The position numbers were made by a program, and so were the translations under genes. Below are positions 39,127 through 62,765 of a stretch of DNA of 64,000 nucleotides, in pieces. The DNA is taken from positions 62,001 through 126,000 of the forward strand of contig NZ_NGUO01000008.1 in assembly GCF_002206635.1 (NCBI RefSeq), in the 5' to 3' direction. The number at the start of each line of letters is the position of its first letter. The first letter of the stretch is position 1. Origin of the DNA: Polynucleobacter aenigmaticus. Its GTDB lineage: Bacteria; Pseudomonadota; Gammaproteobacteria; Burkholderiales; Burkholderiaceae. The notes under the pieces are model-generated. The model searched no databases. It was given only the letters and a program-made list of their open reading frames with translations, and had not been told where the DNA came from.

Positions 39127-39900
39127 TCAGCGGAAGATAGTTTGCACGGCAGCAGCAGCTGTATTCATCTGGCTAACCAAGTAGTAGTCAATGGACTGTT
39201 GGTTATTCAATTGTTGTAATTCAGCTTGCATTGCTGTTTGATCTACGTTTTGAATAGAATCAATGGTGTTTTGCAGGTTAGTACCCAATGCAGCTGCATT
39301 TGTACCTTGAGCGTTCAATGTTGCAAGTGAAGCGTTAACACCAGATTGACCTGTGGAAATAGCGTCAAGAGCAAGTTTAACGGCGGCGATGGCAGCAGTA
39401 GCGCCTGTGGATACGTCCTCTCCGGTTACATCAAGAGCTGTTACAACTGTGGCAGCAATCGTAGTTGTATTTGAGGATACAGGACCTGTTTGTACTGTCA
39501 TAGCGGCAAATACATCAATATTATTTAACATGGTATTTATGGATATTGCATTCACTTGGCTAGCCAGAGAGCTAAAAGTCGCTTGCAATGCAGTTTTATC
39601 TGAAGCTTGCAAACCAGCATTGCTTGCTTGAGTAGCAATTTGACTCATTTGTTGCAAGAGGTTAGCCATTGAGTTCAGTGCTGTGTTGGCAACATCTAAA
39701 GTATTCGAAGCTTGACCAATGTTTTGGCCAGCCTGCGTGTAACCTGTTACTTGGGTTGTCAAACGGGTTACTTGGCCACTTTCAGCTGAGTTCAAATTCT
39801 TTTTGCCGGTAGCTAATTGGTTTTGTACATCAGCAATTTTTGACTGGACGTCATTGATGCTGCTTGAAAGTGTTGATGCTAATGCTGTAATTGCGCTCAT
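39127..39900 (-). CDS. fliC: Flagellin 1
   Basis: A short 257-residue flagellin. The N-terminal D0/D1 region (about 1-130) has ALASTLSSSINDVQSKIADV, QLATGKKNLNSAESGQVTRL and NTALNSMANLLQQMSQIATQ. The C-terminal D1/D0 region (about 200-257) ends AAAAVQTIFR. The central variable part is only about 50 residues, so surface domains D2/D3 are nearly absent. Lengths of 270-500 residues are usual, so this is a minimal flagellin. GAGGAAC precedes the start. No sigma-28 site of its own was seen; it may be read from the flagellin 2 promoter or from an undetected one. Confidence 0.9.
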   Translation of the reverse strand: MSAITALASTLSSSINDVQSKIADVQNQLATGKKNLNSAESGQVTRLTTQVTGYTQAGQNIGQASNTLDVANTALNSMANLLQQMSQIATQASNAGLQASDKTALQATFSSLASQVNAISINTMLNNIDVFAAMTVQTGPVSSNTTTIAATVVTALDVTGEDVSTGATAAIAAVKLALDAISTGQSGVNASLATLNAQGTNAAALGTNLQNTIDSIQNVDQTAMQAELQQLNNQQSIDYYLVSQMNTAAAAVQTIFR

Positions 39901-39987
39901 GATAGTTCCTCTATAGGTAAATATTAAGCAGTCAATTTCAGACTGCGAAACCTATTTTGATGTTAGAAACTCTATTTCAATCCATAA

Positions 39988-40014
39988 AAAAAGCCGGGAT
40001 ATACCCGGCTTTTT
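39988..40014 (-). terminator. Terminator of flagellin gene 2
   Basis: A perfect 11-bp stem (AAAAAGCCGGG / CCCGGCTTTTT) with loop ATATA/TATAT and A/T flanks. It lies 28 bp after the stop of flagellin 2 and would separate it from flagellin 1 unless read-through occurs. Confidence 0.92.
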
Positions 40015-40042
40015 TAGCCTACATTACTTAACTGTTTAGGGA

Positions 40043-40822
40043 TTAACGGAAAATCGTCAAAACTGCAGCTGCAGCCGTATTCATCTGGCTAATCAAGTAG
40101 TAGTCAATAGACTGTTGATTATTCAATTGTTGTAACTCGGCTTGCATTGCTGTTTGATCAATATCTTGAATAGAGTCAATCGTTTTTTGCAAGTTACTAC
40201 CCAATGCAGCTGCATTTGTACCCTGAGCGTTCAATGTTGCAAGTGAAGCGTTAACACCAGATTGACCTGTGGAAATGGCGTCAAGAGCAAGCTTAACGAA
40301 GGCGATGGCAGCAGTAGCGCCCGCAGTAGTGGCTACGGTCTGTGCGGTTGCATCAAGAGCTGTTACATCTGTGGCAGCAATCGTAGTTGTATTTGTGGAT
40401 ACAGGACCTGTTTGTACTGTCATAGCGGCAAATACATCGGCGCCATTTAGCTCGGTTGCAGTGGAAAGGCTCTCCACTTGCGTCGCTAATGAGCTAAAAG
40501 TCGCTTGCAATGCAGTTTTATCTGAAGCTTGCAAACCAGCATTGCTTGCTTGAGTAGCAATTTGACTCATTTGTTGCAAGAGGTTAGCCATTGAGTTCAG
40601 TGCTGTGTTGGCAACATCTAAAGTATTTGAAGCTTGACCAATATTTTGGCCAGCCTGCGCGTAACCTGTTACTTGGGTTGACAAACGTGTTACTTGACCA
40701 CTTTCAGCTGAGTTCAAATTCTTTTTGCCGGTAGCCAATTGGTTTTGTACATCAGCAATTTTTGACTGGACGTCATTGATGCCGCTTGAAAGTGTTGATG
40801 CTAATGCTGTAATTGCGCTCAT
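40043..40822 (-). CDS. fliC: Flagellin 2
   Basis: A 259-residue flagellin, almost identical to flagellin 1 over the first 115 and last 60 residues; the differences cluster in residues 115-185 (for example SLSTATELNGADVFAA against ISINTMLNNIDVFAA). This is the surface-exposed central part. It has AAGGAAC as ribosome binding site and a clear FliA promoter about 200 bp upstream, so it is probably the main filament subunit. Tandem duplication with flagellin 1 includes the terminators. Confidence 0.92.
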   Translation of the reverse strand: MSAITALASTLSSGINDVQSKIADVQNQLATGKKNLNSAESGQVTRLSTQVTGYAQAGQNIGQASNTLDVANTALNSMANLLQQMSQIATQASNAGLQASDKTALQATFSSLATQVESLSTATELNGADVFAAMTVQTGPVSTNTTTIAATDVTALDATAQTVATTAGATAAIAFVKLALDAISTGQSGVNASLATLNAQGTNAAALGSNLQKTIDSIQDIDQTAMQAELQQLNNQQSIDYYLISQMNTAAAAVLTIFR

Positions 40823-41133
40823 GATAGTTCCTTAAGTTTAAGTAAAGCAAACCACTATTGGTCTGCAATAAAAATAAAGCATGGTCATACCCAATGTATA
40901 AACATACCAACCTACTACAAGGACATCAGTGCGTGATACGTAGACCACATCAACAGTGCCATTTGCCAGTCTTACGACTAACTTGTTTCTAACTTCTAGT
41001 GAAGTTAAGTTCTATATACTCTTTATCGGCGGTGCTCTTAAGAACTTTAGGGTTCATTTGAATATTTATTAGATCTTTCACAACTTTTTTCTTTTTTAAG
41101 ATTTAAGGAGAAAGATTTCGAATGATTGTCCAC
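40823..41133 (-). other. Flagellin 2 leader region
   Basis: About 310 bp with no gene. It holds the FliA promoter (41023-41049) and then roughly 190 bp of untranslated leader, long for a flagellin mRNA. The leader has no obvious strong hairpin. Confidence 0.6.
41023..41049 (-). promoter_or_regulatory. Sigma-28 (FliA) promoter of flagellin 2
   Basis: On the minus strand TAAAGTTC, 11 bases, GCCGATAA: 15 of 16 positions match the consensus, with exact spacing and a perfect -10. It drives the flagellin 2 gene. Confidence 0.93.
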
Positions 41134-41907
41134 TTACCCCAGCTTGCTAAGTAGGGTGTAGACCTCTAGCTTATTGTTTAGCATCTGCAGTTGTGATTGC
41201 AGTGCAGGCTTATCTAGATTTTGCAATATGGTAAGTTGCTTTTGTGAGCTAGTGGCCATGTTATTAATGCTATCTGCCTTAGCGTTCAACTTATTGACGC
41301 TCGATCTAAGCATCATCTGGCCATTGCTAACGGTAGCAATGGCGCTAGAAATAGATGCTACCGCCATATTCGCATCAGAAACAGATTCGAGTCTAATTCC
41401 CCCCAAAGCGCCCATAGTGATCATTCCATAAATATTTACTGGCTGTATATGGGTGCGAGAGCTGGGGGTATTATCAGAACCCGTTTTGACATTGACGCCA
41501 GCAGTTCCGCTCAACAGGTTTGAGCCATTGACGCCAGCCGATGTAGCTATTTTTCCTATCTCAGTCACTAGCTTTTGGAAGCGATTATTTAAATAAATCG
41601 CATCTAAATTTGAAAGGCTTGGATTGGTAGCTTGATTGGCTAACATCTGCATTTGCCTGAGTAAACTCTCAATTGAGGTTAAGCCCTTTTGAGCACTTTT
41701 AATAACGCCTTGGGCGTTTGTAATGCTTTGAAGTGTTGCCGTTTGAGTAGTGGCGTTATTAGATAGGCGAGTAATTGTGCTTTGATCGCTTGGGCTAATA
41801 ATCTTTTTGCCGGTATTTAATTGTGTTTGAACGAGGTTGATTTTCGACTGAGTATCTGTCAAATAGCTTGAATAGATAGAAAAAGAGAAGTTATTGAAAG
41901 TGCGCAT
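41134..41907 (-). CDS. Divergent flagellin / FlgL-like protein
   Basis: A 257-residue protein with a flagellin-type N-terminal coiled region (LVQTQLNTGKKIISPSDQST, then LTSIESLLRQMQMLANQATN) and a C-terminal helix (LQSQLQMLNNKLEVYTLLSK) that lacks the terminal hydrophobic end of the two flagellins. TGKKIISPSDQ is closer to hook-filament junction protein FlgL (TGKRILTPSDD) than to the flagellins. It is shorter than typical FlgL. It follows flgM by 30 bp, so it is probably in the flgA-flgM transcript. It may be a minor filament, junction or anchoring subunit. Confidence 0.65.
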   Translation of the reverse strand: MRTFNNFSFSIYSSYLTDTQSKINLVQTQLNTGKKIISPSDQSTITRLSNNATTQTATLQSITNAQGVIKSAQKGLTSIESLLRQMQMLANQATNPSLSNLDAIYLNNRFQKLVTEIGKIATSAGVNGSNLLSGTAGVNVKTGSDNTPSSRTHIQPVNIYGMITMGALGGIRLESVSDANMAVASISSAIATVSNGQMMLRSSVNKLNAKADSINNMATSSQKQLTILQNLDKPALQSQLQMLNNKLEVYTLLSKLG

Positions 41908-41937
41908 TCATCCTATCCTTTTCTATTGATGACCTAT

Positions 41938-42246
41938 TTAGGGCTTAAGTAAGCCAACTGCATTTGCAATCAGGCCATCTGCAACTTTGGCTGTATCGAC
42001 AGTAAAGCTGCCGTCTTGAATCGCCATCTTGATTGAATCAACTTTTGTAGCATCAAATGCTGGGCTAGCTGCAATAGCGGATTCCAGGGCTTTTAATGAG
42101 TCCGATTTGCTTATGGCAGTCTGGCTGACAGCAGAATTTTTTGTATCAGCTTTAGTAGTAGGGGCTGAATTTGCGTTATTCGTTACTGCATCAGTTTTAT
42201 CGATGCCAGCATTCATAATACTTTTTAGGGAGTTATTGATATTCAT
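41938..42246 (-). CDS. flgM: Anti-sigma-28 factor FlgM
   Basis: FlgM binds and blocks FliA until it is exported through the finished hook. The 102-residue protein is small, low in aromatic residues, with a disordered N-terminal half and a C-terminal helical region (ALESAIAASPAFDATKVDSI, then MAIQDGSFTVDTAKVADGLI) that matches the sigma-binding domain. Position downstream of flgA is usual. It is followed by the divergent flagellin-like gene instead of flgN. Confidence 0.9.
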   Translation of the reverse strand: MNINNSLKSIMNAGIDKTDAVTNNANSAPTTKADTKNSAVSQTAISKSDSLKALESAIAASPAFDATKVDSIKMAIQDGSFTVDTAKVADGLIANAVGLLKP

Positions 42247-42358
42247 AAGGTTCGCTTTGCGTGATGGTCGATTACCTATCCTTTAACGGTATGGATATGG
42301 AATTCTTTAATGGCTAATTCGTATCTACGCTCTAAGTCCCTGTTTTCAATGTATAAAT

Positions 42359-43120
42359 CTATTTTGAATTGACAATCACTTGCCCGCTAGCATTGGCCGT
42401 GCCGGTAATGACTTGTCCGCTTACCATTCTGACTTGGACTGCTTGGTCCTCTGTGGCTGAGCTTAAAGCTTGACCTTCAGTGCTAATACTAAAGCCCTGG
42501 CCAATGCTCAGAACTCTCACGGTCTGATTTTGCTGGACTACAGACTGTAATTTAATCATATCTTGCCTAATGACCGACCCAGCAGCAAGAGACATCTTGA
42601 CGCTTTTACCAATGACTTGAGCCGGGTTGGTAAAGATGCCGGCGGGCAGAATAGTTAAATCACCTTTTTGCATCTGCAAGTCATTGTTTTTTAATACTTG
42701 GCCCTGAGCAAGTGGTGCTGCAGCAACACTATATTCTGCGTAAATACTGACATTGGCTTGAATGTAAATGGTCCAGGCGCTAGGGGCGCTACAACGAATT
42801 CCTACCGAGGTTTTCCCCCAGGCACGACTACCAACCGGAAAAAAGGCCTCTGGGGCAGGGCAAAAGTTGAGTCTGAGGTTGGGGTCAATGGGGGTTGTGC
42901 TCACCTCGACCTTACCCGGAGATCCCGCACTCTGAGTCATTAAGAATTCTTTTACTTTTTGATTGAGAGCCCCTAAGTCTTGTTGGACCTCCTGAGTAGC
43001 CTGCCCAGCGGATGCTTCTACTTTGGATTGTGCCTGGGCATTAGAAAGAAGAGTAGTCATGCCGGCTAGCAAATACACGGTTAGCAAATGGAGCGGGGTG
43101 GACTTCAGGTGGCGGTTCAT
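42359..43120 (-). CDS. flgA: Flagellar P-ring chaperone FlgA
   Basis: FlgA is a periplasmic chaperone for assembly of the FlgI P ring. The 253-residue protein has a signal peptide to about residue 31 and the C-terminal SAF domain (VLKNNDLQMQKGDLTILPAG, then VIGKSVKMSLAAGSVIRQDM). It is divergent from flgB. FlgM follows after about 110 bp. Confidence 0.95.
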   Translation of the reverse strand: MNRHLKSTPLHLLTVYLLAGMTTLLSNAQAQSKVEASAGQATQEVQQDLGALNQKVKEFLMTQSAGSPGKVEVSTTPIDPNLRLNFCPAPEAFFPVGSRAWGKTSVGIRCSAPSAWTIYIQANVSIYAEYSVAAAPLAQGQVLKNNDLQMQKGDLTILPAGIFTNPAQVIGKSVKMSLAAGSVIRQDMIKLQSVVQQNQTVRVLSIGQGFSISTEGQALSSATEDQAVQVRMVSGQVITGTANASGQVIVNSK

Positions 43121-51327: not shown

Positions 51328-53244
51328 ATGGCACTAGTTAAAAAACCAACCGCATCAACTGCAAGTTTAGGCGCAGATATTAAGGGTAATGCAGCTTCCA
51401 ATCGCGAGGCTGATGCCGCGCGTAAAAAAGCAAGAACCCTGGGCAAGCAACAACAGGCTGCTGAGCGTATTGCCGCTGCAACTGCCGAATTGGCTTCGGG
51501 TATTGCTGAAGCTGCCGCTGCAACCGAAGAGTTAAAGCGTATATCAGATCAAATTGCCACGGTCGCAGAAGAAGCGTCTGGCGCGGCCCAGGAATCATTA
51601 GCTGGGTTTACGCAGGTAGCGGGCGCTATTGATCGCCAGCTACAAAATGCTGACATTAGCCAGTCTAAATTAGAGGCAACTCAAGGTTTGATCGTTTCAA
51701 CTAGCAATGATATTGCTGAGCTTATTACTAATGTAGGTATTGCCGCTCAACGTCAAGCAGCTTCAGTAACAATGGTTATCGAGCTGGAAAAGCAAGCGGC
51801 TAACATCGGAGATATCGTTAAAGCTGTTGCCCGTATTGCTGATCAAACTAATCTATTGGCATTGAACGCTGCAATCGAAGCAGCTCGGGCTGGGCAGCAT
51901 GGCAAGGGATTTGCTGTTGTTGCTGATGAAGTCAGAACTTTGGCAGAAACTTCAGAAAAGAGCGCCAAACAGATTCAAGAGTTAGTCGGTCAAATTCAAG
52001 ATGATGTGAAGAATATTGCAACGGGTATTAATACTTCTGCAGAAACTATGGAATCTGAGGCAGTTAAAGCTCAAGTAATCACAGTTCAGAATGAACAAAT
52101 TCGTTTAGATACAATCGCTTGCGTTGTCGGTATTCAGGAAATTGCAACGGGCGCAACCCAATCTAACGCTGCCGCTGAACAGGCATTGAAGGGCTCACAG
52201 GATATAGCTGCTGCTGCAGAAGAGCAATCTGCTGCTGCCGAAGAGGGTGCTAAAACCGTTGATGAGCAAGGCTCAGCATTAGCCCAAGCAGAACAAGCAG
52301 CTCAGTCTTTAGCTGAATTGAGTGAAGATCTTAAAAACTCTACCGATGTGGCTAAGAGCGCTGAAGAGGTAGCTTCTTCTGCCGAACAATTATCTTCTGC
52401 AGTACAAGAAATTAATCGTGCTGCTGCGCAAGTAATGACTGCCATAGAGCAAATTAGTAGAGCTGCTGGAACACAGTCTGCAGCCGCTGATCAATCTGCC
52501 GCTGCCATTACCCAAATTGAAACTGGTTTAGAGGTTTCACAGGCTCGTGCAACAGACATTGGCTCAAAAATTACAACCATTCAATCTCTCTTGGGAGTTA
52601 ATAAGACAAGTGTTGATGCTTTGATCGTTGGAATTACTACCTCTGTAGAGGCAACTATTGAAAGTGTTAAGAAGGTCAAAGATTTAGAGCTGGTATCCCG
52701 TCGTATTGATAAGATCGTTGAAGCAATTTCAACTGTATCCATTCAAACCAATATGTTAGCTGTTAACGGTGCTATTGAAGCGGCTCGTGCCGGTGAGTTC
52801 GGTAAGGGTTTTGTAGTAGTTGCCACTGACATTCGTAATCTGGCACATGATTCCTCTGAAAATGCTGATCGCATTAAAGATTTGGTTAAGGCAGTTCAGG
52901 ATCAAATTACAGTCGTGGGACGTGATTTAGAGGAGATTGCAGTAACTGCAAATACTGAGATTGAAAGAGCAAAAGCAAGCACTACCAACTTAGTCATTAT
53001 TGAATCTGACATGGGTATTGTAGATAAAGGTACTCAGGAAATCTTAGCTGCCTCTAATGAAATAGCCACTACTATTGGCCAGGTCAAAAAAGGTATTGAG
53101 CAAATTGCGAATGCGGCTACTGAAGCCTCTACAGCAGCTGCTCAAGCAGCGAGCGCTGCTAAGCAACAATCTGATGGTGCCGAAGAATTAGCCTCCGCGA
53201 TCGAGGAAATTGCTTCTTTGGCTGATGAATTACAAAGCGCTTAA
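51328..53244 (+). CDS. Soluble methyl-accepting chemotaxis-type protein with two signalling tips
   Basis: A 638-residue, almost fully helical cytoplasmic protein with no membrane helix and no recognisable sensor domain. It carries two separate kinase-control tips: [20 protein letters not shown] with [14 protein letters not shown] (about 175-207) and [20 protein letters not shown] with [14 protein letters not shown] (about 476-508). A normal receptor subunit has one. The region between and around is heptad-rich (Ala/Glu/Gln). The last 30 residues are not a typical CheR/CheB pentapeptide tail. It begins the operon, with AGGAGA before the start and the triple-CheW gene following. Confidence 0.92.
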
Positions 53245-53265
53245 TAGCTTAAGGAAATCCATAAC

Positions 53266-54849
53266 ATGACAAACGATACCCAAATGAATGGGATTGATGA
53301 GTCGATGGTGCTGGAGGGGGCGGCTGAAGTTAGCCGCACCGATACCCGTCAATTTGTTACTTTCATAGCTGGTAATGAAGTATTTGCAGTAGATATGGCG
53401 CCTGTGCAAGAAATTATTCGTGTACCGGATGTTGTACGCGTGCCATTGGCGCCTAGCACTTTAAACGGGCTTGCCAACTTACGTGGCAAGGTACTCCCAA
53501 TCATTTCTTTGCGCCGGATGTTTGGTTTTGAAGATTTAGCGCATGATGACTCTACCCGTGCTGTTGTGGTTGATTTAGGCCAGCCACTGGGTTTCGTGGT
53601 GGATCGCGTGGCTAGCGTGGTTGGAGTGGACGTGAGCAAGATCGAGGGCGTTGGTGGTATTAGCAGTGCGATTAATACCGAATTGCTTTCCGGCATGATC
53701 AAAGACGTAGGCGGTCATGCCATGATTATGATTCTCAACTTTGAGAAATTGATCGAGCATGAATTTTCCCAAATTGCCTTGATTGCTAAAACAGCTAATC
53801 TAGGCGATGCGCATGCAAGCGGGATGAATGCTGAAGCTGAGATTGCAGAGTCTAATGATGAATTGCAATTAGTCAGCTTTGATGTGGCTGATCAAGAGTA
53901 TGCAATTGACATTAATGATGTGCAGGAAATCGTTCAGGTTCCTGACAATATTATTCATGTGCCACGTTCACAAGCCCATGTAATTGGTGTAATGACTTTA
54001 CGTAATCGTCTTTTGCCACTAGTCTCTTTGCGCAAAATGTTTGCATTGCCTGATAAGCAGCTTGATGAAACTAGCCGTATTGTCATTTTGACCTTAGGCG
54101 GTGTTTCTGTTGGTATTGCAGTTGATGGCGTTAGTGAAGTCTTGCGTGTGGCCAAGGCTCACGTAGATGCGATGCCTGCCATGTTAGCGCGCGAAGGCAA
54201 TCTCTCAGATATTTCAGAAATCTGCCGATTGGATGACGGTAAGCGTTTGGTATCCATTATTACTGCGCGCAATCTTTTCGACCACTCTGCAATTAAAGAG
54301 GCATTGAATGCCGTGAATAATATGGATCAAGATAATACTCAAGAAGTCCTTACGCACGAAGAGGGCATTGACGATGACGAACAAGTAGTCATTTTCTTAC
54401 TCGATAAAGAAGAGTTTGGCGCAGCTATCACTAGCGTGCAAGAAATCGTTCGCGTTCCAGAGGATTTAGTTCGTGTGCCACATGCAGCAGACTTTGTTGA
54501 GGGCGTTATTAATTTGCGCGGTAGTGTATTGCCCGTGATTGATTTAAGAACTCGTTTAGGTTTGGAAGTAGTGGAGCGTTCTGATGGTCAGCGCATTATG
54601 GTGTTCTTAATTAACGGAATGCGTACAGGGTTCATTGTTGATCATGTCGCAGAAGTTCTTAGAATACCTAAAGCAGCGATTGAGCAGTCTCCAAAATTGT
54701 CAGTAGAACATGGCAAGCTCTTGTCTCGTATGGCTAATCTTGAGAAGCAAAAACGCATGATTCAGTTAATTGACACTGAGCATTTGATTGCCGGTGATGA
54801 TTTACTGAAGTTGGCAGCGGTGACCAAGACTCAAGCGAGTGTGGAGTAA
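53266..54849 (+). CDS. Protein with three tandem CheW domains
   Basis: CheW couples receptors to CheA. This 527-residue protein has three CheW domains with no other domain: about 28-170 (VFAVDMAPVQEIIRVPDVVR, then LANLRGKVLPIISLRRMFGF), 200-345 (YAIDINDVQEIVQVPDNIIH, then MTLRNRLLPLVSLRKMFALP) and 370-510 (FGAAITSVQEIVRVPEDLVR, then INLRGSVLPVIDLRTRLGLE). The NLRG motif is intact in domains 1 and 3 and changed to TLRN in domain 2, so the domains may differ in partner. It may link several receptor tips at once. Confidence 0.95.
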   Translation: MTNDTQMNGIDESMVLEGAAEVSRTDTRQFVTFIAGNEVFAVDMAPVQEIIRVPDVVRVPLAPSTLNGLANLRGKVLPIISLRRMFGFEDLAHDDSTRAVVVDLGQPLGFVVDRVASVVGVDVSKIEGVGGISSAINTELLSGMIKDVGGHAMIMILNFEKLIEHEFSQIALIAKTANLGDAHASGMNAEAEIAESNDELQLVSFDVADQEYAIDINDVQEIVQVPDNIIHVPRSQAHVIGVMTLRNRLLPLVSLRKMFALPDKQLDETSRIVILTLGGVSVGIAVDGVSEVLRVAKAHVDAMPAMLAREGNLSDISEICRLDDGKRLVSIITARNLFDHSAIKEALNAVNNMDQDNTQEVLTHEEGIDDDEQVVIFLLDKEEFGAAITSVQEIVRVPEDLVRVPHAADFVEGVINLRGSVLPVIDLRTRLGLEVVERSDGQRIMVFLINGMRTGFIVDHVAEVLRIPKAAIEQSPKLSVEHGKLLSRMANLEKQKRMIQLIDTEHLIAGDDLLKLAAVTKTQASVE

Positions 54850-54854
54850 TAAAG

Positions 54855-55925
54855 GTGATTCGATTATTGATCGTTGATGATTCGGCGCTGATGCGCCGTC
54901 AATTAACAACCTTATTTGAGGCTGAAGGGGATTTTGATATCCGCCATGCCAGAAATGGGCGTGAGGCTGTCGAACTCAATCGCGAGTTTGAGCCTCACGT
55001 GATCAGTTTAGATATAAATATGCCCGATATGGATGGCTTAACGGCCTTATCCCTGATTATGGCCCAACGTCCTGTTGGGGTGGTGATGGTGTCATCCCTT
55101 ACTGAAAAGGGCGCATTAGCTACTTTTGAAGCCTTACATTTAGGTGCGATTGATTATGTCGCTAAACCTGGCGGTACGATTTCATTGTCGATTGATGTCA
55201 TTAAAGACGATCTGATCTCGAAAATTCGGGCCGCTTCGCGTGCTCGCCTCAAGGGTAAGACTTCTGTAAAGACTTTATCTGAGCGCATGCGCGATGATCG
55301 GGCTAGAACTATTAGCAATGCCAAGAAGATGCGACCTAAAAGTCAGCATGGTGATGGCTTGGTATTAATTGGCGTATCGACAGGCGGACCACGAACCTTA
55401 GAAGAAATTTTGCCGCAGTTACCAGCGGATTTTCCGTGGCCCATTTTAGTAGCACAACATATGCCAGCTGCATTTACTAAGTCTTTTGCAGATCGCTTAA
55501 ATAACGTTTGCCCATTGAGGGTATCAGAGTTATCGCAGCCCACTGTCATTGAGCCTGGCCATATTTATATCGGTAAGGGCGGTGCGGACATGCTGGTAGC
55601 CAATAGGGTTGGTCGATTGATGGCAATACCTAAGCCAGAAAATACGGATTTCTTGTGGCACCCTTCGGTTGAGTTATTGGGGCGTTCAGCACTTGAGCAC
55701 GTTAATCCTGAGGCCATCATTGGAGTGATGTTGACGGGTATGGGCTATGACGGAGCGGATGCATTTTCTGAAATTAAGAGTCGAGGTGGCAAGACGATTG
55801 CTGAATCAGAAGAGTCGGCAGTGGTATTTGGTATGCCAGCCGAATTAATCGAACGCAAAGGCGCGAGCGTCATTTGTACATCGGACAAAGTAGCATCGCA
55901 GCTCAATCGTTGGGCTGGGTTTTAA
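54855..55925 (+). CDS. cheB: Chemotaxis methylesterase CheB
   Basis: A 356-residue response regulator-esterase. Receiver (1-125) with Asp53 (SLDINMPDMDG), then the methylesterase/deamidase domain (about 165-356) with catalytic Ser in GVSTGGPRT, His in AQHMPAAFT and Asp in MGYDGADAF. It removes methyl groups from receptor Glu residues. It starts at GTG 54855, five bases after the CheW gene. HEAT gene and cheR follow. Confidence 0.96.
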   Translation: MIRLLIVDDSALMRRQLTTLFEAEGDFDIRHARNGREAVELNREFEPHVISLDINMPDMDGLTALSLIMAQRPVGVVMVSSLTEKGALATFEALHLGAIDYVAKPGGTISLSIDVIKDDLISKIRAASRARLKGKTSVKTLSERMRDDRARTISNAKKMRPKSQHGDGLVLIGVSTGGPRTLEEILPQLPADFPWPILVAQHMPAAFTKSFADRLNNVCPLRVSELSQPTVIEPGHIYIGKGGADMLVANRVGRLMAIPKPENTDFLWHPSVELLGRSALEHVNPEAIIGVMLTGMGYDGADAFSEIKSRGGKTIAESEESAVVFGMPAELIERKGASVICTSDKVASQLNRWAGF

Positions 55926-55937
55926 AAGGAAATTATT

Positions 55938-56561
55938 GTGGCATTAATTAAAAGTAAAGCCTTGCCCCAAGCTGTTGAGTTAACTGCTGAAGAAAAACCT
56001 AGCTGTGAAAGTTTGCTTGCACAACTGTCAGATGAAAATCCGGAAACACGTCGCTGGGCAGCACGCGATATGTTGCATTGCGAAGATGCCAGCGAAGCAT
56101 TGGTATCGCGCCTAAAAATAGAGTCTGAACTTTCTGTCCGAGAAGTCATTTTGACAGCCTTAATTCACTTAAAGAGCCCCAACTCGATTGCTGGACTGGT
56201 TGAATGTTTACGCAGCGAGGACCCATCCTTGAGGAACGAAGCTCTGGAAGCGATGAAGCAGCTTCCTGACTTGGTTGCCCCAATTATGGTCGATCTTCTC
56301 AATGATGAGGATCCTGATGTCAGAATTTTCTCAGTCAATATTTTGGAGTCCTTACGTCATTCCGATGTTGAATCGTGGTTAATCGGCGTAGTTGAAGAGG
56401 ATCCCCATGTCAATGTCTGCGCTACAGCTTTGGATTTACTCAGTGAAGTGGGTACTGAGGCTGCGATGGTAGCAATTCCAAAAATAAAGGCTCGTTTTGC
56501 TGATGAACCTTATATCCAATTTGCTGCCGATTTGGCTTTCAAACGCATAACAGAATGCTAA
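55938..56561 (+). CDS. HEAT-repeat protein of the chemosensory operon
   Basis: A 207-residue soluble protein built of about five HEAT-like helix pairs (for example SVREVILTALIHLKSPNSIA, DPSLRNEALEAMKQLPDLVA, DPDVRIFSVNILESLRHSDV). Such repeats are protein-binding scaffolds; no enzymatic motif is seen. The start is GTG 55938 with AGGAAA upstream. Its end overlaps cheR by 7 bp, so expression is coupled. HEAT proteins occur beside che genes in some proteobacteria, with no established role here. Confidence 0.85.
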   Translation: MALIKSKALPQAVELTAEEKPSCESLLAQLSDENPETRRWAARDMLHCEDASEALVSRLKIESELSVREVILTALIHLKSPNSIAGLVECLRSEDPSLRNEALEAMKQLPDLVAPIMVDLLNDEDPDVRIFSVNILESLRHSDVESWLIGVVEEDPHVNVCATALDLLSEVGTEAAMVAIPKIKARFADEPYIQFAADLAFKRITEC

Positions 56562-57442
56562 AAAATACGATGTCTAGGACCGCCTTACGTAAGACGGGCG
56601 AAATTACTATTAGCGAAGAGGACTTTAATAAGTTTCGGGAATTCTTCTATCGCAAAACAGGAATTAGTTTTGAGTCAAGCAAACGTTATTTTGTTGATAA
56701 ACGCTTGATTGACCGTGTCAATGCTACTGGTAGTGAAAATTTCCGTAGTTATTTCATTATGCTGCGCTTTCAAGCCTCTGGCGAAGAGCTGCAATTTTTA
56801 ACCAATGCAATGACTGTGAATGAAACCTATTTCATGCGTGAGGAAGATCAATTTAAGTGCTTAGTTGATTCTATCTTGCCGGAAATTATGAAGCGTAAAG
56901 CTGCCACTAGAAACAGGCTCATTCGAATTTGGAGTATTCCTTCATCCTCCGGAGAGGAGCCATATTCAATTGCAATGTGTCTACTAGAGCGATGGGCTGA
57001 TATTCACGAGTGGGATATTGAAATCATCTCCTCAGATATTGATACGGGTATTTTGCATAAGGCGAAGATTGGGCGCTATTCCGAGCGCTCAATTCAAAAA
57101 TTACCCAAGGCATGGCTCAATAAATACTTCCGCCGCGTTGGTGAGGGGTATCAGATTAATGATGACTTGAGGGAGGCGGTTGAGTTCACCCGTGTAAACC
57201 TTACTGAACCTGCCGATACACGTCCTTACCGGAACTTCGATGTTATTTTCTGTCGTAATTTACTTATTTACTTTGATGACGTTTCACGCAAAACAGCGGC
57301 TGAATGTTTCTATGATGCGCTAACACCTGGCGGCTTTATATGTTTAGGACATTCTGAATCCATGAGTCGCATCTCCCCGCTATTTAAACCGCGTAAATTC
57401 CCTGAAGCCGTCATTTACCAAAGACCCCTGGAGGCAAGATGA
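56555..57442 (+). CDS. cheR: Chemotaxis methyltransferase CheR
   Basis: Transfers methyl groups from S-adenosylmethionine to receptor Glu residues. The 295-residue protein has the N-terminal helical domain (about 1-85), the conserved TVNETYFMREEDQF segment, SAM-binding region (IWSIPSSSGEEPYSIAMCLL) and the catalytic-domain motif VIFCRNLLIYFDD. Length is normal. It overlaps the HEAT gene and cheY (ATGA). Confidence 0.97.
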   Translation: MLKNTMSRTALRKTGEITISEEDFNKFREFFYRKTGISFESSKRYFVDKRLIDRVNATGSENFRSYFIMLRFQASGEELQFLTNAMTVNETYFMREEDQFKCLVDSILPEIMKRKAATRNRLIRIWSIPSSSGEEPYSIAMCLLERWADIHEWDIEIISSDIDTGILHKAKIGRYSERSIQKLPKAWLNKYFRRVGEGYQINDDLREAVEFTRVNLTEPADTRPYRNFDVIFCRNLLIYFDDVSRKTAAECFYDALTPGGFICLGHSESMSRISPLFKPRKFPEAVIYQRPLEAR

Positions 57443-57807
57443 AGCGCATCCTAATTGTGGACGATGCTGCCACTGTACGTATGTACCACCGAAATATTCT
57501 CGAATCCGCCGGCTTTGTAGTTGAAGAAGCGGTGAATGGATTAGAGGCACTCGAAAAAGCATTACAAACACCATTTGATTTGTACTTGGTAGATATTAAT
57601 ATGCCGAAATTGGATGGATTTGGTTTCTTGCGCGAGCTGCGTAGTGAAGCAATTCCTCAAGCCCCGGCGATTATGGTTTCAACTGAATCTGAGGCGAATG
57701 ATCGGTTAAATGCTTATAAAGCTGGTGCTAATGTGTATTTAGTGAAGCCAGTGAAGCCGGTGCAACTCCTAACGCATGCCCACTTATTATTAGGGGAGTC
57801 ACGCTAA
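57439..57807 (+). CDS. cheY: CheY-like single-domain response regulator
   Basis: A 122-residue receiver with acidic pair DD8-9, phospho-acceptor Asp52 (LVDINMPKLDG), Thr/Ser in MVSTES and Lys in LVKPV. It overlaps cheR (ATGA) and cheA (TAATG). Whether it binds FliM or acts as a phosphate sink cannot be told. Confidence 0.94.
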   Translation: MKRILIVDDAATVRMYHRNILESAGFVVEEAVNGLEALEKALQTPFDLYLVDINMPKLDGFGFLRELRSEAIPQAPAIMVSTESEANDRLNAYKAGANVYLVKPVKPVQLLTHAHLLLGESR

Positions 57808-60551
57808 TGAATCCGCTTCTAGAGCAATTTCTAGCTGAGGCACGTGAATTTCTCCAGGGAATTGGAGAGAAGCTCATAGAGTTGGAGCGCACTCCAGATG
57901 ATGCTGATTTAGTAAATGAATTATTCCGACTGGTGCACACACTGAAGGGAAATAGCGGTTTATTTGATTTTCCGGAAATGATTCGCGTATTACATGCCGG
58001 TGAAGATTTAATGGATGTTGTGCGAAATGGTAAGACCCTGTATTCACAAGAGCTAGCGGATCGATTGCTAGATGCAATGGATTTTGTCGGTTTGCTGTGT
58101 GACGAGATTGAGAGTGGCGGCGTAATCGCACCATCAAGAGCGACGGATTCTGTCAAGTTGGTGGAATCTTTGCGCGCCTTGATTACATTTCACCCATCAG
58201 ATCATGATTCCGCCCCAAAAGATGCTGCAATAGGCGCTTCAGAAGTAGTGGAACTACCATCCGCACAATTGTTGAGCAGTATTCCGGAATCTGCACGTAT
58301 GTCAGCCTACGTAGATGGAGGATCGCTTTATTGGATTCGCTACACTCCGATTTCTGAATGCTTCTTCCAGGGTGAAGATCCTTTTTACACCTCTAGAAGA
58401 GTGCCGGGATTATTGTGGGGAAGAGGTAGTTCACGTGCGGATTGGCCTGCGATGGCAGATTTCAATGCCTATGAATGCGCGCTTGATTTTTATGTACTTA
58501 GCAATGCATCAAAAGAAGAATTGCTAGCCCATTATCGCTATGTCCCTGATCAAATTCAGATCTGCGCAATCGACCCACTCTTTTTGGTTATCCCCCAGGG
58601 GGACCCAAACGGCGGTCCAGTATACGAGGACTTCGTAATCGAGGCATTGCAGCTCTTAGACGCAGATGATTTTGAGGGTTTAAACCAAGCTGCTCAAACT
58701 ATGATTGAGCTCAGTAGCCCAGATTTATGGTTTTCTTCTGCTTTACGTTGGTTAATTGTTCTACTTCAATCTGAACCAAAGAATTGTTCTGCCATTTGCG
58801 CATTGATTTTCTCTTTACGCACTTTGGATACGCCAAATTGGTGCGATATAAAGATGGAGTCTACCGATCTTGCAATAAATAATGATGCTTCATCAGCGTC
58901 CAATGTGATTGAATTGGTGACCAACCCAACACCAGCCAACATTATTTTTGATGACCTTTCAGAGGAAGAAGTTGAGGCCTTAGAGGACATCCTGGTTGAT
59001 CAACGGCAAATTTTACTCTTAGAAGATCGCCCAAATTGGGTTGCTGGGCGATGGACATCTGTTGCCGGCACCTTAGTTAATTGTTTTGTGGCTAGTGGAA
59101 ACGCAGATGCAAAAGGGGAGATTGAGGATGCACTAGCGCAATCTATCGCCACAATGAATCCGACCCCTTTATTGTATTGGCTCGACTCCCGCCTAGGTCT
59201 CATTGGCAAAGAGAGCTCTGGGCAAACCCCGGACTCAGCGTTATCCACGGAGGATGATGCTTTGTATGCGGCAATGATGGAGGACTCCGGTACTGCTATA
59301 GAAGGCACTATTCCTGTGGCCACAAAGAGTCAGGATACGCAGAAATTTGGTAAGCGTACAGATGAAACTATAGCTGCTCCGAAGAGTCTTAAGGTTGATC
59401 AAGTCAAGATTGATCGTTTGATGAATCTCATTGGCGAGATGGTTGTCTCTAAGAATGCATTGCCATATTTAGCGCAACGTGCTGAAGATCAATTTGGTGT
59501 TCGTGAGTTATCGCGTGAAATCAAAACACAATATGCGGTAATCAACCGTATTGCTGAAGAGATGCAAGATGCCATCATGCAGGTTCGTATGATGCCCGTA
59601 TCGTTTGTATTTCAGAGATTCCCGCGGCTAGTACGTGATATATCGCGCAAGCTAGGAAAAGAGGTTAACCTGGTTTTAGAGGGTGAAGATACCGAGGCAG
59701 ATAAAAATATTATCGAATCTTTAGCAGACCCATTAATTCATATTCTTCGCAATAGTTTGGACCATGGCCTAGAGACACCTGATATTCGTAAGGCTGCCAA
59801 AAAACCCACTACGGGCACCTTAACTATCCGCGCTGCACAAGAGGCCGATCAAGTCATTATTGAGATCCAGGATGATGGCAAAGGAATTGACCCGGTTGCA
59901 ATTAAGCGCAAGGCTTATGAAAAGGGGATCATTGACGAGGCAACTTTCGAACGCATTACCGATGCTCAAGCCGTCAACTTAGTATTCACAGCAGGCTTTT
60001 CAACTGCTGAAACCATTTCAGATCTTTCTGGTCGTGGCGTTGGGATGGATGTAGTGAGATCTGCTGTAGAAGGAGTGAATGGCACTATTGTTTTGGACAG
60101 TGAAGTGGGTAAGGGTACTCGTATCCGCATCTCATTACCCCTCTCTATGGCCGTTACCAAGGTGATGATTGTGGAGTCTGACCAACAGATATTTGGTGTA
60201 CCAATGGATCATGTGGTGGAAACTGTGCGCGTACCACGTCATGCCATTCGCGCCATTAAAAATAATCTGACAACTCTATTAAGGGGGCGACTCATTCCCT
60301 TGAAAAATCTTAATGCACTTTTAGATATTCCCGCCAATCAATTATCTAATGAACATGATGAGTTGGCGGTACTGGTTGTTCGAATAGGGTCTGAGTCAGT
60401 AGGTCTTGTGGTGGATAACTTTAATGAAACGATAGACGTGATTCAAAAGCCGCTGGATGGTGTGTTGGGTGGCTTATCGGCTTACTCTGGTTCCGCCTTG
60501 ATGGGCAATGGATCCGTTTTGATGGTGTTGAATGTGAAGGAGATTGTGTAA
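57807..60551 (+). CDS. cheA: Chemotaxis histidine kinase CheA, enlarged
   Basis: A 914-residue CheA, against about 650 in E. coli. P1 (1-105) has the phospho-acceptor His44 in LVHTLKGNSGLF. P3 dimerisation starts at about 532 (VKIDRLMNLIGEMVVSKN), P4 ATPase (about 590-775: NSLDHGLE, DDGKGID, FSTAETISDLSGRGVGMDVV) and P5 CheW-like coupling (about 777-914). The 105-530 segment is not a recognisable P2; it contains Trp-rich and acidic parts (GLLWGRGSSRADW, LSEEEVEALEDI) and looks like a separate folded domain plus linkers. All catalytic motifs appear intact. Confidence 0.95.
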   Translation: MNPLLEQFLAEAREFLQGIGEKLIELERTPDDADLVNELFRLVHTLKGNSGLFDFPEMIRVLHAGEDLMDVVRNGKTLYSQELADRLLDAMDFVGLLCDEIESGGVIAPSRATDSVKLVESLRALITFHPSDHDSAPKDAAIGASEVVELPSAQLLSSIPESARMSAYVDGGSLYWIRYTPISECFFQGEDPFYTSRRVPGLLWGRGSSRADWPAMADFNAYECALDFYVLSNASKEELLAHYRYVPDQIQICAIDPLFLVIPQGDPNGGPVYEDFVIEALQLLDADDFEGLNQAAQTMIELSSPDLWFSSALRWLIVLLQSEPKNCSAICALIFSLRTLDTPNWCDIKMESTDLAINNDASSASNVIELVTNPTPANIIFDDLSEEEVEALEDILVDQRQILLLEDRPNWVAGRWTSVAGTLVNCFVASGNADAKGEIEDALAQSIATMNPTPLLYWLDSRLGLIGKESSGQTPDSALSTEDDALYAAMMEDSGTAIEGTIPVATKSQDTQKFGKRTDETIAAPKSLKVDQVKIDRLMNLIGEMVVSKNALPYLAQRAEDQFGVRELSREIKTQYAVINRIAEEMQDAIMQVRMMPVSFVFQRFPRLVRDISRKLGKEVNLVLEGEDTEADKNIIESLADPLIHILRNSLDHGLETPDIRKAAKKPTTGTLTIRAAQEADQVIIEIQDDGKGIDPVAIKRKAYEKGIIDEATFERITDAQAVNLVFTAGFSTAETISDLSGRGVGMDVVRSAVEGVNGTIVLDSEVGKGTRIRISLPLSMAVTKVMIVESDQQIFGVPMDHVVETVRVPRHAIRAIKNNLTTLLRGRLIPLKNLNALLDIPANQLSNEHDELAVLVVRIGSESVGLVVDNFNETIDVIQKPLDGVLGGLSAYSGSALMGNGSVLMVLNVKEIV

Positions 60552-60790
60552 TGTCAATTGAATTCAAGAAAAAAAAGGCCTTCTTTAAGGAAGTGGTTGG
60601 GGTTGAGGAGGCCGAGAGTCTATTGCAGTGGATTTCAGATAACCCTAGCGGCAAGATTGATTTGAATTCCTGTACCCATCTGCATTCAGCAAATCTACAA
60701 GTGCTCGTTGCTTGTAAACCCTTTATTTCTGCCTGGCCACAGGATGCATCTCTACGTGTGTGGCTAGAAAACTCTTTAATTAATAAGTAA
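60551..60790 (+). CDS. STAS-like small protein of the chemosensory operon
   Basis: A 79-residue soluble protein resembling a minimal STAS domain (KIDLNSCTHLHSANLQVLVA central strand-helix). It overlaps cheA by TAATG. STAS domains act as phosphorylatable or nucleotide-binding switches; the usual Asp-Ser site is not clear here. A role in CheA control is only inferred from position. Confidence 0.7.
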   Translation: MSIEFKKKKAFFKEVVGVEEAESLLQWISDNPSGKIDLNSCTHLHSANLQVLVACKPFISAWPQDASLRVWLENSLINK

Positions 60791-60802
60791 GGACTGATTT
60801 CC

Positions 60803-61180
60803 ATGTCAAAAAAAATATTCCTAGTAGATGACTCAGCGACTATGCTGAGCACTCTTAAAACATCCCTCATGATGAATGGGTTTGAAGTTGATACTGCCTG
60901 CGATGGTGTTGATGCCTTGAGCAAACTAAAGGCAGGCGCATTCAAACCAGACTTGATCATTACGGATGTCAATATGCCCAATATGGATGGCTTAGAACTA
61001 ATTAAAAACCTACGGTCTTTACCAGCCTTTCGTTTTATGCCAATACTCATTTTTACTACAGAGAGTCAATCTGCTAAACGTGAAGAGGGTAAAAAATTAG
61101 GTGCCACTGGCTGGTTGGTGAAGCCAACTTCCGCTCCAACTCTCGTGGGAATTATTAAGGAAGTGCTTCCTGGGGCTTAA
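60803..61180 (+). CDS. cheY: CheY-like response regulator (second)
   Basis: A 125-residue receiver with DD9-10, phospho-acceptor Asp55 (IITDVNMPNMDG), Thr/Ser in FTTES and Lys in LVKPTSAP. It is the second free receiver in the operon. One of the two may be the output and the other a phosphate sink or adaptor. Confidence 0.94.
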   Translation: MSKKIFLVDDSATMLSTLKTSLMMNGFEVDTACDGVDALSKLKAGAFKPDLIITDVNMPNMDGLELIKNLRSLPAFRFMPILIFTTESQSAKREEGKKLGATGWLVKPTSAPTLVGIIKEVLPGA

Positions 61181-61184
61181 TTTT

Positions 61185-61967
61185 ATGGAAATTCAAAAAA
61201 AACTCCATTTCGGCGCACTTCCCAGCTACACCATTTCCCTCGGTGTAGGGATTGTTTTGTCTGTACTTGCTTTTAAGTTGGCGCAAAACTTGCCTGAGAA
61301 TTCGATTTTGCCCTATGCAACTGGAGCGATTGTCTTGGTTGGTTTGGCTGTTTATCACATCCTATTTACCCGCTCAATTAATCGGCATATCGAAGAGGCT
61401 ATTAAGACTCAGCAGATATGGGATAAAAGTCGTCAGTTAAACGATGAGAACTACAGACGCTTACAAGTTTTTTTAGGCTCTATTCCTGAGTTAAATAAGT
61501 TGTTAGAGGCTCACTTGGCATTTATTAATGAATCCACTGAAAAAGCTTCTTTAGCCATTATTTCTAAACTTTTCTTGATGGAGGAGCGGGTTGCGCAAAT
61601 TTTGAAGGAGTTAGATGGCCAGAAATTGCAGATCCCATCGGCGATCCTGTCACATGAATCTTTTATTGAAATGCGACATGCCATTATTGATATTCTTTCA
61701 CATACCCAATTTCAGGATATTAGTAGACAGCAAATTGAAGTAGTGACAAAGGGTCTCGCTCTATGCGCGCAGTACTCTGATGAGGTGGCTCATATTCTGG
61801 ACTCAAATAATCCTGAACCTTTGACTACTCCGAATTTACAGAGTGAGTCGATGAAGGCCTTACGTGAGAGCTACACCATGGAAGCGCAGCGTATTGTGCA
61901 CTTTAATGCTACGGGTGATGACTCTGCATTAGATGTGGCAGGACGCCCGGCGATCGAATTATTTTAA
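61185..61967 (+). CDS. Membrane-anchored CheZ-like protein
   Basis: A 260-residue protein with two N-terminal membrane helices (about 14-32 and 42-62) followed by a long helical region. The segment HTQFQDISRQQIEVVTKGLA (about 167-186) resembles the catalytic motif of CheZ phosphatases (DFQDLTGQ), in which Gln enters the CheY active site. Normal CheZ is soluble and lacks membrane helices. A CheY-P phosphatase tied to the inner membrane is therefore suggested but needs proof. It lies 4 bp after the second receiver. Confidence 0.7.
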   Translation: MEIQKKLHFGALPSYTISLGVGIVLSVLAFKLAQNLPENSILPYATGAIVLVGLAVYHILFTRSINRHIEEAIKTQQIWDKSRQLNDENYRRLQVFLGSIPELNKLLEAHLAFINESTEKASLAIISKLFLMEERVAQILKELDGQKLQIPSAILSHESFIEMRHAIIDILSHTQFQDISRQQIEVVTKGLALCAQYSDEVAHILDSNNPEPLTTPNLQSESMKALRESYTMEAQRIVHFNATGDDSALDVAGRPAIELF

Positions 61968-61976
61968 GAGTGGTTT

Positions 61977-62765
61977 GTGTTTAAGCTCGTCATATCGAAT
62001 CGCAAAGGCGGTACAGGAAAGACAACTGTATCGGTCAATTTAGCCGCAGAGCTTGCGGCTATTGGTAAGAGGGTGCTTCTGATTGACTTGGACTCTCAAG
62101 GACATTGCGCGGTAGGTTTAGGTTTGAAATTGACTTCAGATTCACCGACCATTCATGATCTTTTTTCTAAGCCTGGAACACCTCTATCAAAAACCATTCA
62201 TATTACTAATTTTGCTAATTTAAGTATCGCCCCAGCAGATACCTTATTTGAGCATGGTAGTGGACTGCGAGACCCTCGCTTATTGGTTAATAGCTTCGCC
62301 GAACTGGAGCTAGCCTCTAGTTATGATGTGGTGATTATGGATACACCGCCGTCGCATGACGTTCTCTTATTAAACGCATTGACAGCAGCTAATTTCATTC
62401 TGGTTCCGTTTGTCCCTCACCCACTGTCATACGAAGGATTGCGACAGCTGATGCGAGTACTATTTAAGGTAATTTCTCGAGAAAATCGAACATTAAAGAT
62501 TGCCGGTTTTTTACCGATTATGAGCTCTCAGAAAGTTCGTCAACATCATGCCACTAAGGGGGATGTCAGTAGGCAATTCGGAGCCTCGAGGGTCTTACGG
62601 GGTATTCGCAATGACATTGCTCTTGCTGAGGCATTTGCTGTAGGAAAGCCGATCCGCTATCATTCGCCTAAAAGTCGTGGCGCAAAAGATTTTGCTGATT
62701 TGGCTCAAGGCATATTAGACTTAATCGAAGCTAGACAAGCCATCTCCATTAACCAAATCCTTTAG
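61977..62765 (+). CDS. ParA/MinD-type ATPase of the chemosensory operon
   Basis: A 262-residue ParA-like ATPase with the deviant Walker A KGGTGKTTVSV (about 9-19), Walker A' and switch region (LLIDLDSQGHCAVGLG), and Walker B VVIMDTPPSHD. No DNA-binding N-terminal domain is present, as in PpfA, ParC and other ParA homologues that place protein clusters. No parB gene is next to it. Since the operon's receptor is soluble, it probably distributes the chemosensory cluster between daughter cells, as PpfA does in Rhodobacter. Start GTG 61977. Confidence 0.9.
   Translation: MFKLVISNRKGGTGKTTVSVNLAAELAAIGKRVLLIDLDSQGHCAVGLGLKLTSDSPTIHDLFSKPGTPLSKTIHITNFANLSIAPADTLFEHGSGLRDPRLLVNSFAELELASSYDVVIMDTPPSHDVLLLNALTAANFILVPFVPHPLSYEGLRQLMRVLFKVISRENRTLKIAGFLPIMSSQKVRQHHATKGDVSRQFGASRVLRGIRNDIALAEAFAVGKPIRYHSPKSRGAKDFADLAQGILDLIEARQAISINQIL

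Follow-up and report, generated by a model that had tools for sequence, protein, structure and literature searches.

A soluble receptor, a triple CheW and a ParA ATPase encoded side by side raise the question of which chemosensory system they build, and of how such an array would receive its input, be switched off and be placed in the cell. The genes are located at positions 51328–62765 of a 64,000-nucleotide stretch of Polynucleobacter aenigmaticus DNA (contig NZ_NGUO01000008.1, positions 62,001 to 126,000), the whole of which is called the window here. Eleven consecutive open reading frames (ORFs), all on the + strand, follow each other with intergenic gaps of −7 to +21 bp, and every gene named in the original prediction of a tightly packed, one-strand operon was found in its place. 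Judged by its gene content, this is almost certainly a complete class-F9 chemosensory operon. The best overall explanation, which we consider probable, combines an F9 cassette with a cytoplasmic array, a CheZ-like off-switch and placement by ParA.

Published work is cited here from parts of the papers, and what is said of it refers to those parts. Class F9 is marked by DosM, a receptor with double signalling domains, and by a concatenated triple CheW, and full F9 clusters have been counted in 64 of 2,781 species (PMC9321776). The window operon contains both signature features, namely a tandem receptor with two signalling domains (tips 300 residues apart, no sensor domain found by Pfam) and a CheW with three concatenated domains (CheW3), with CheA, CheB, CheR and CheY in the same cluster; it is therefore taken to be a full F9 operon. 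A point that weighs against the assignment is that it relies on DosM, CheW3 and the gene set and not on an F9-class CheA model. The set had been thought to be undescribed, which is wrong because DosM with CheW3 has already been published as the F9 signature (PMC9321776, PMC7534058). Kinship with class F9 gives good support to the proposed cytoplasmic array, since the DosM/CheW3 array of Vibrio cholerae is purely cytoplasmic (PMC7534058, PMC3964821) and membrane-free, with two baseplates at a spacing of 35 nm (PMC3964821).

Cluster I of V. cholerae encodes DosM (VC1403), a triple CheW (VC1402), CheA (VC1397) and VC1394, a 24H receptor with a membrane region (PMC7534058). Compared by its published description, it resembles the Polynucleobacter operon in the double-signalling receptor, triple CheW, CheA, CheB, CheR, two CheY proteins and VC1394-type gene. 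The Polynucleobacter operon differs in that it ends in ParA, its VC1394-type protein is without the receptor hairpin, it lies inside a flagellar locus, and no cytoplasmic receptor other than DosM was found in its genome by an MCPsignal search, within the sensitivity of that search. HEAT, STAS and ParA proteins are not named as F9 components in the available parts of the F9 literature, and a literature search, conducted largely without subscription journals, returned nothing on this operon or on ParA in F9.

The eleven ORFs, with functions predicted from sequence, are as follows.

51328–53244 (+), DosM-type receptor, 638 residues; two Pfam MCPsignal matches and no other family
53266–54849 (+), CheW3, three concatenated CheW domains, 527 residues; Pfam CheW in three stretches, 308 bits
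54855–55925 (+), CheB, receiver and methylesterase; Pfam matches, NF001965 above cut-off
55938–56561 (+), HEAT-repeat protein, 207 residues; Pfam HEAT_2, 78.5 bits; N-terminus MALIKS
56555–57442 (+), CheR methyltransferase; Pfam CheR and CheR_N
57439–57807 (+), CheY-like receiver 1 (CheY1), single-domain; Pfam Response_reg
57807–60551 (+), CheA, 914 residues; Pfam Hpt, dimerisation, ATPase and CheW domains
60551–60790 (+), divergent STAS-like small protein, 79 residues; orthologs in 47 of 55 loci (see below)
60803–61180 (+), CheY-like receiver 2 (CheY2), single-domain, Pfam match; adjoins the CheZ-like gene, as in most relatives
61185–61967 (+), CheZ-like protein, 260 residues; QFQDISRQ (D178, Q182), tail PAIELF
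61977–62765 (+), ParA-family ATPase of an F9-associated group; Pfam AAA_31, 122.6 bits; KGGTGKTT

Core proteins and the predicted array

Pfam confirms the triple CheW, CheB, HEAT protein, CheR, two CheY proteins, CheA and ParA of the original prediction, and its soluble receptor without a membrane helix is supported by a highest 19-residue Kyte–Doolittle mean of 1.22 in DosM. CheW3 is 50–53% identical to three orthologs and 100% identical to the CheW3 of P. finlandensis MWH-Mekk-B1. More than 400 residues of CheA between the Hpt and dimerisation domains (residues ∼93–525) gave no Pfam match at E ≤ 0.001.

An alignment of CheW3 was used to scan genome contigs and gave 253 relatives, of which the best 80 loci were retained; two of these, L088 and L089, are from the species of the window or a near-identical one. 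The best 80 of 253 are from Beta-/Gammaproteobacteria, Desulfobacterota, Acidobacteriota and Verrucomicrobiota, with DosM and CheW3 alone seen in the last (Spartobacteria). CheW3 was detected in nine of 398 sampled genomes of the phylum (E ≤ 1e-40) and in 11 of 399 of the order (E ≤ 1e-60). Gene order is largely conserved across the loci compared. Where CheA is complete and followed by 3.8 kb of sequence or more (55 loci), we counted DosM in 52, CheW3 in 54, CheB in 54, HEAT in 48, CheR in 54, CheY1 in 48, the STAS-like protein in 47, CheY2 in 51, the McpA/CheZ-like protein in 49 and ParA in 30, where some misses are cut contigs or split or masked ORFs.

The two DosM tips carry EAARAG at residues 184 and 484. 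They lie exactly 300 residues apart in 79 of 80 DosM proteins; a single tip was recognised in the 80th (L179). As one straight helix, 300 residues would measure ∼45 nm by calculation, which exceeds the baseplate distance in V. cholerae. DosM dimers of a length fixed by this spacing would very probably bridge a pair of CheA/CheW3 baseplates, giving a cytoplasmic array built as a sandwich.

DosM starts with MALVKK and the HEAT protein with MALIKS, peptides of the same type. The pattern M[AGPS][LFIM][IVL][KRT][KRSTQNPG], devised after these sequences had been viewed and applied to the first 135 residues of each ORF in the 80 loci, matches most long-receptor ORFs (67 of 76) and HEAT ORFs (58 of 67), none of 464 unnamed ORFs, 0 or 1 ORF of each other gene class, and four of 60 shorter receptor ORFs, two of which are truncated DosM. 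In the divergent F9 loci L177 and L178 both proteins have tags that are one residue shorter (MALKK and MGLKK), if the HEAT protein begins at an inner methionine; at L155 a HEAT protein with MGLKK is paired with a DosM with MALVKK, so that the tags do not always change together. The DosM N-terminus is alike in loci with and without a nearby ParA, which weighs against a bond between DosM and ParA: no ParA-specific partner is indicated, and a ParA partner read from this N-terminus was abandoned as unsupported. Because the tag is present irrespective of ParA, its partner would more likely be a core array protein. It is conceivable, if doubtful, that the HEAT protein docks in the array via its DosM-like peptide or competes for the same partner. 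The shared tag looks new, in that the literature search described above found nothing on a tag common to HEAT and DosM.

The STAS assignment held only in part, as the 79-residue protein itself has no Pfam STAS match, whereas STAS_2 was reached below threshold by two of seven orthologs (E 0.012 and 0.02). It contains HLHSAN at the position where the STAS neighbour of an F7-type cluster (L025) shows DSAG. CxHxH, a candidate metal site, is kept in 67 of 76 homologs; several Desulfobacterota, one Methylococcaceae and the divergent loci lack it, and such a site is not claimed here.

The CheZ-like protein

Relatives in the same operon position are mostly 358–536 residues long and consist of an MCP hairpin, a QFQDxxRQ helix and a terminal -ELF tail. 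Aligned with these relatives, the window protein covers both of their ends with the hairpin gone (the gap falls at about residues 148–157 relative to L090, L097 and L111) and has no Pfam MCPsignal match; its PAIELF tail is conserved, as in L090, L097 and others. The hairpin is also absent from L127 (276 residues) and from L095, L105 and L117 (Methylococcales, 188–194 residues). These three Methylococcales loci have a separate receptor of 599–732 residues downstream of ParA, with PAS and HAMP domains in L117, as if the two parts had been split. McpA-like receptors (PA0180/CttP of F7 and VC1394 of F9) share a conserved C-terminus and a putative membrane anchor with the window protein, and relatives at L024–L026 occur in clusters whose gene content is F7-like, a class assignment that is our own reading. 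The window protein differs from them in the absence of the MCP hairpin; DxxxQ goes unmentioned in the available parts of the literature on these receptors, and no CheZ-like motif in them was retrieved by the literature search. The protein thus appears to be a McpA/VC1394-type receptor without the signalling hairpin in which a CheZ-style DxxxQ and the -ELF tail are kept, a form that looks new.

The motif is a consistent feature of the family. QDxxx[QE] is present near the C-terminus in 63 of 69 collected sequences; five others have HDxxxQ and the sixth is the PAS receptor of L117. When ORFs of 180–800 residues on the operon strand ending in [EQ]LF were selected independently of the motif, [FY][QH]D[ILVT]xxQ was found in 54 of 58, compared with one of 3,540 other ORFs. 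D178 and Q182 of the window protein are spaced as DxxxQ within a predicted helix (residues 157–206). The Asp and Gln of DxxxQ are the catalytic pair of CheZ, and DxxxQ is found in other phosphatases too. CheZ (PF04344) likewise carries FQD-x-x-x-Q on a long helix, from which the window protein differs by its hydrophobic N-terminus, its other tail and the absence of a PF04344 match at E ≤ 0.1. A model built from 18 CheZ proteins gave 36 matches among 3,598 ORFs, 28 of them, including all of the 15 best, in the McpA/CheZ-like group, with weak scores (best 18.9 bits; L088 and L089 copies 5.7). PF04344 matches four of 40 aligned relatives at E ≤ 0.1 (best E 5e-6), as does Apolipoprotein, and the F7-type relative at L025 reaches E 4e-4 with PF04344 and 2.4e-4 with NF041271, below both cut-offs. 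In the alignment by hhalign, D178 and Q182 fall on FQDLTGQ of Escherichia coli CheZ.

Several results weigh against a CheZ-like, membrane-anchored protein. The hhalign score of the family against CheZ (18.6) does not stand out from those of 30 shuffles (up to 20.2), so that profile–profile proof of homology failed. The AlphaFold model (mean pLDDT 79.7, pTM 0.56) has an N-terminal helix at residues 14–34, a helix from 42 onward and a long helical hairpin. A fold search against the PDB returned unspecific helical hairpins; CheZ was not among the matches listed, which counts neither for nor against. The membrane anchor is read from the helices at 14–34 and from 42 onward and from two N-terminal hydrophobic peaks (19-residue means of 1.84 and 1.79), but these peaks are equalled by CheW3 (1.92) and ParA (1.91), which are taken to be soluble. 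Pfam recognises the MCP hairpin in 35 of the 40 aligned relatives, so that it is normally kept; decay of the hairpin in many relatives, suggested by a strict tip pattern, was dropped for this reason. A model of the CheZ motif helix by itself did not separate the family from DosM and was also discarded. Of the predicted membrane-anchored CheZ-like protein, the motif, the relatives and the hydrophobic N-terminus thus stand, whereas the CheZ family models give no backing and the hydrophobicity measure is unselective. By motif and position we read the protein as a response-regulator phosphatase that is not a member of the CheZ family; it would, rather likely, act at the membrane to dephosphorylate a CheY, probably the neighbouring CheY2.

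The non-significant profile comparison and the hairpin retained by most relatives are also what would be expected of a reduced, non-enzymatic receptor whose DxxxQ and tail form an array-docking or CheR/CheB-tether region. The Tar-like receptor and a CheD-like protein of the same genome end in -ELF as well, and such tails may serve as tethers in general; McpA/VC1394-type proteins are treated as receptors in the published view (PMC7534058, PMC7184735). Against this, DxxxQ and the tail persist where the hairpin is absent (the window, L095, L105, L117 and L127), the apparent split into separate receptors in Methylococcales points the other way, and deletion of McpA-like receptors left the F7 array unaffected (PMC7184735). 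We regard the non-enzymatic receptor as a tentative alternative, less likely than the phosphatase.

The -ELF tails thus occur on three different chemotaxis proteins of the window genome: besides the CheZ-like protein, a CheD-like protein (our reading; L032:11310–11939, −) ends in DIELF and the Tar-like receptor (L032:12818–14857, −) in DWELF, in a region that corresponds to ∼135–139 kb of G000:C8. A Giesbergeria metagenome-assembled genome (L128:10001–20920) has two McpA-like/CheY pairs within a single F9 operon, and in L124, L137, L141, L155, L156, L159 and L166 the McpA-like gene is followed by a gene for ∼290–330 residues, often with a gene for 130–140 residues after it. L159 is the F9 locus of the methanotroph Methylotuvimicrobium buryatense 5G, an example of the receptor-bearing form.

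ParA and the flagellar insertion

The F9 signature proteins, their gene order and linkage, and the place of insertion can be read directly from the sequence. An F9 CheA was found in three of 186 congeneric genomes, including that of the window (the other two are 100% matches), and FlgI in 63 of 186, among them all three F9 carriers. The FlgI region was compared in eight flagellated congeners. Five of these (L228–L232) have flgJ followed by convergent motB–motA and no F9 genes; flgJ and motB are adjacent in L228, separated by small ORFs in L230 and L231, and by small ORFs and a 431-residue ORF in L229 and L232. The flagellar region is arranged differently in the remaining three. In the window the F9 operon including ParA is located between flgJ and motB, and by comparison with the five F9-free intervals the operon and ParA therefore form a block between these genes. 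We infer that they arrived as one cassette, and its placement in this Polynucleobacter looks new. Among the 30 ParA-bearing loci the closest CheA proteins are from Polaromonas (66% identity), Janthinobacterium (64%) and a Gallionellaceae genome (63%). CheA proteins of other congeners were rejected as orthologs, as the matches in 36 congeners are 32–40% identical over the C-terminal part or weaker; among 20 annotated congener loci the F9 set is present in L065 and L066 only, within the stretch compared. The best match to a sigma-28-type promoter before DosM has three mismatches to the consensus, with better matches elsewhere in the window, and the + strand of the flgJ–DosM interval showed no sigma-70-type site. 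At position 41049 (−) the window matches the sigma-28 consensus perfectly, upstream of a 259-residue ORF (40043–40822, −) that is one of four similar-sized ORFs at 39127–43120.

ParA starts 9 bp past the CheZ-like gene of this soluble-receptor operon. Its Walker motifs are intact, with a deviant Walker A, KGGTGKTT, that fits KGGxGK[ST]. A search of 34 genomes gave ten ParAs at 252–563 bits to the window ParA, its own included; those of the nine other F9-bearing genomes are 52–65% identical to it (252–354 bits). The next ParA, encoded within the divergent F9 operon of G496, scores 127 bits, and no other match exceeds 113 bits. Of the 80 loci, 34 have a ParA gene no more than 6 kb from CheA (two of the 34 from the window's species or a near-identical one) and 25 do not, while 21 cannot be judged. 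When the 24 genomes of these 25 loci were searched, four had an F9-type ParA 1.7–4.5 kb beyond the locus, with contig identity inferred. Over 30 loci, ParA distances correlate with those of CheW3, CheA, CheB and CheR (r 0.48–0.69), as do the core pairs with each other (0.66–0.87), values that none of 500 permutations reached. In L177 and L178 ParA is encoded within the operon, between CheA and CheY2.

The evidence is divided on whether this ParA serves the array. In a plain F9 operon it could be an incidental neighbour without contact to the array: at E ≤ 1e-45 an F9-type ParA was found in only one of the 11 CheW3 genomes of the 399-genome order sample and once, in G094, without a CheW3 match, and no ParA is named among the V. 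cholerae cluster I genes in the available part of PMC11940527, where only che genes are named. A further point against a dedicated role is that the second arginine of RNVRLAEA, as found in the chromosomal ParA of the same genome, is alanine in the window ParA. An incidental neighbour seems unlikely to us, as ParA is part of the inserted stretch, occurs within 6 kb of CheA in so many loci, co-varies with the operon core, lies inside the operon in L177 and L178, and all ten ParAs above 250 bits are in an F9 locus or, by coordinates, just beyond one. On these comparisons ParA is an optional, often co-inherited module of F9 loci, an association that looks new; it is optional because within the order sample only the window genome and G094 show it. 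At L204:9371–10156 (−), in a genome without a CheW3 match, an F9-type ParA has what we take to be glycyl-tRNA synthetase genes as neighbours.

Positioning of the array by ParA is plausible. By analogy with PpfA and TlpT, array placement would be its likely job, and we lean slightly towards a role like that of PpfA in Rhodobacter, with ParA placing or segregating the array on the nucleoid. In CheOp3 of Rhodobacter sphaeroides, too, a ParA homologue (PpfA) is encoded next to the soluble receptor cluster; the differences are that TlpT is a classical MCP there, with split CheA3/CheA4 and CheW4, and that DosM and CheW3 go unmentioned in the available parts of that literature. In the ParC/ParP system a ParA-like ATPase likewise serves chemosensory arrays, those of Vibrio F6, which, by contrast, are membrane-bound and polar.

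Input, output and meaning

MCPsignal matches the window genome three times, in the two DosM tips and in a 679-residue TarH/HAMP receptor, and the same three were found in both F9-bearing congeners. The Tar-like receptor belongs to a separate flagellar chemotaxis cluster with CheA, CheW, CheR, CheB, CheY, a true CheZ and, by our reading, CheD. A receptor set this small, with one Tar-like receptor found besides DosM, looks new. Because DosM lacks a sensor, F9 arrays have been argued to depend on further receptors for their input (PMC9321776). Having no sensory domain, the array must be fed from elsewhere, here perhaps by the single Tar-like receptor, by an internal protein state (the STAS-like or HEAT protein) or from the phosphatase side. 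CheR and CheB would adapt the array, and CheA would phosphorylate both CheY proteins.

The F9 array could co-assemble with the Tar-like receptor as a second input to the flagellar motor and not be an independent cytoplasmic system. That one other receptor gene alone was found in three genomes, that the operon is inserted within a flagellar cluster, that all three F9 congeners have FlgI and that 97% of F9 species have flagellar genes (PMC9321776) fit this picture. The Tar-like receptor, a TarH and HAMP protein, has its own CheA, CheW, CheR, CheB, CheY and CheZ alongside, however, and the published F9 array is membrane-free (PMC7534058, PMC3964821); we hold co-assembly to be improbable. To an output other than motility, for example stress or gene-expression control, we give somewhat less than even weight: deletion of the F9 CheA of V. 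cholerae was without phenotype in standard conditions, and the array is seen at low oxygen or starvation (PMC7534058, PMC9321776), whereas the insertion inside a flagellar locus speaks against it.

A more far-reaching reading would make the McpA/VC1394-type 'receptors' of F9 and F7 tethered response-regulator phosphatases that also carry a receptor hairpin, with this Polynucleobacter showing the stripped form: its array would consist of DosM alone, lack any sensory receptor and have its own ParA for segregation, with the mid-plane held by the HEAT protein through the shared peptide, and would sense by internal state or through the phosphatase. This joint reading is speculative, and we consider it improbable as a whole, more so than co-assembly.

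The value of the operon is in its reduced receptor set, stripped CheZ-like protein, optional ParA module and tag shared by DosM and HEAT, all of which can be tested. The genome is small, and as it has one DosM, a single flagellar chemotaxis system and only one further receptor that was found, the question of F9 input could be addressed by few deletions. Tethered phosphatases, if that is what the McpA-like proteins are, would supply a mechanism behind their so far unexplained C-terminal conservation (PMC7184735) and give F9 and F7 clusters with a McpA/VC1394-type gene a built-in off-switch. If the link to ParA is true, F9 would be another class of cytoplasmic array placed by partition ATPases.

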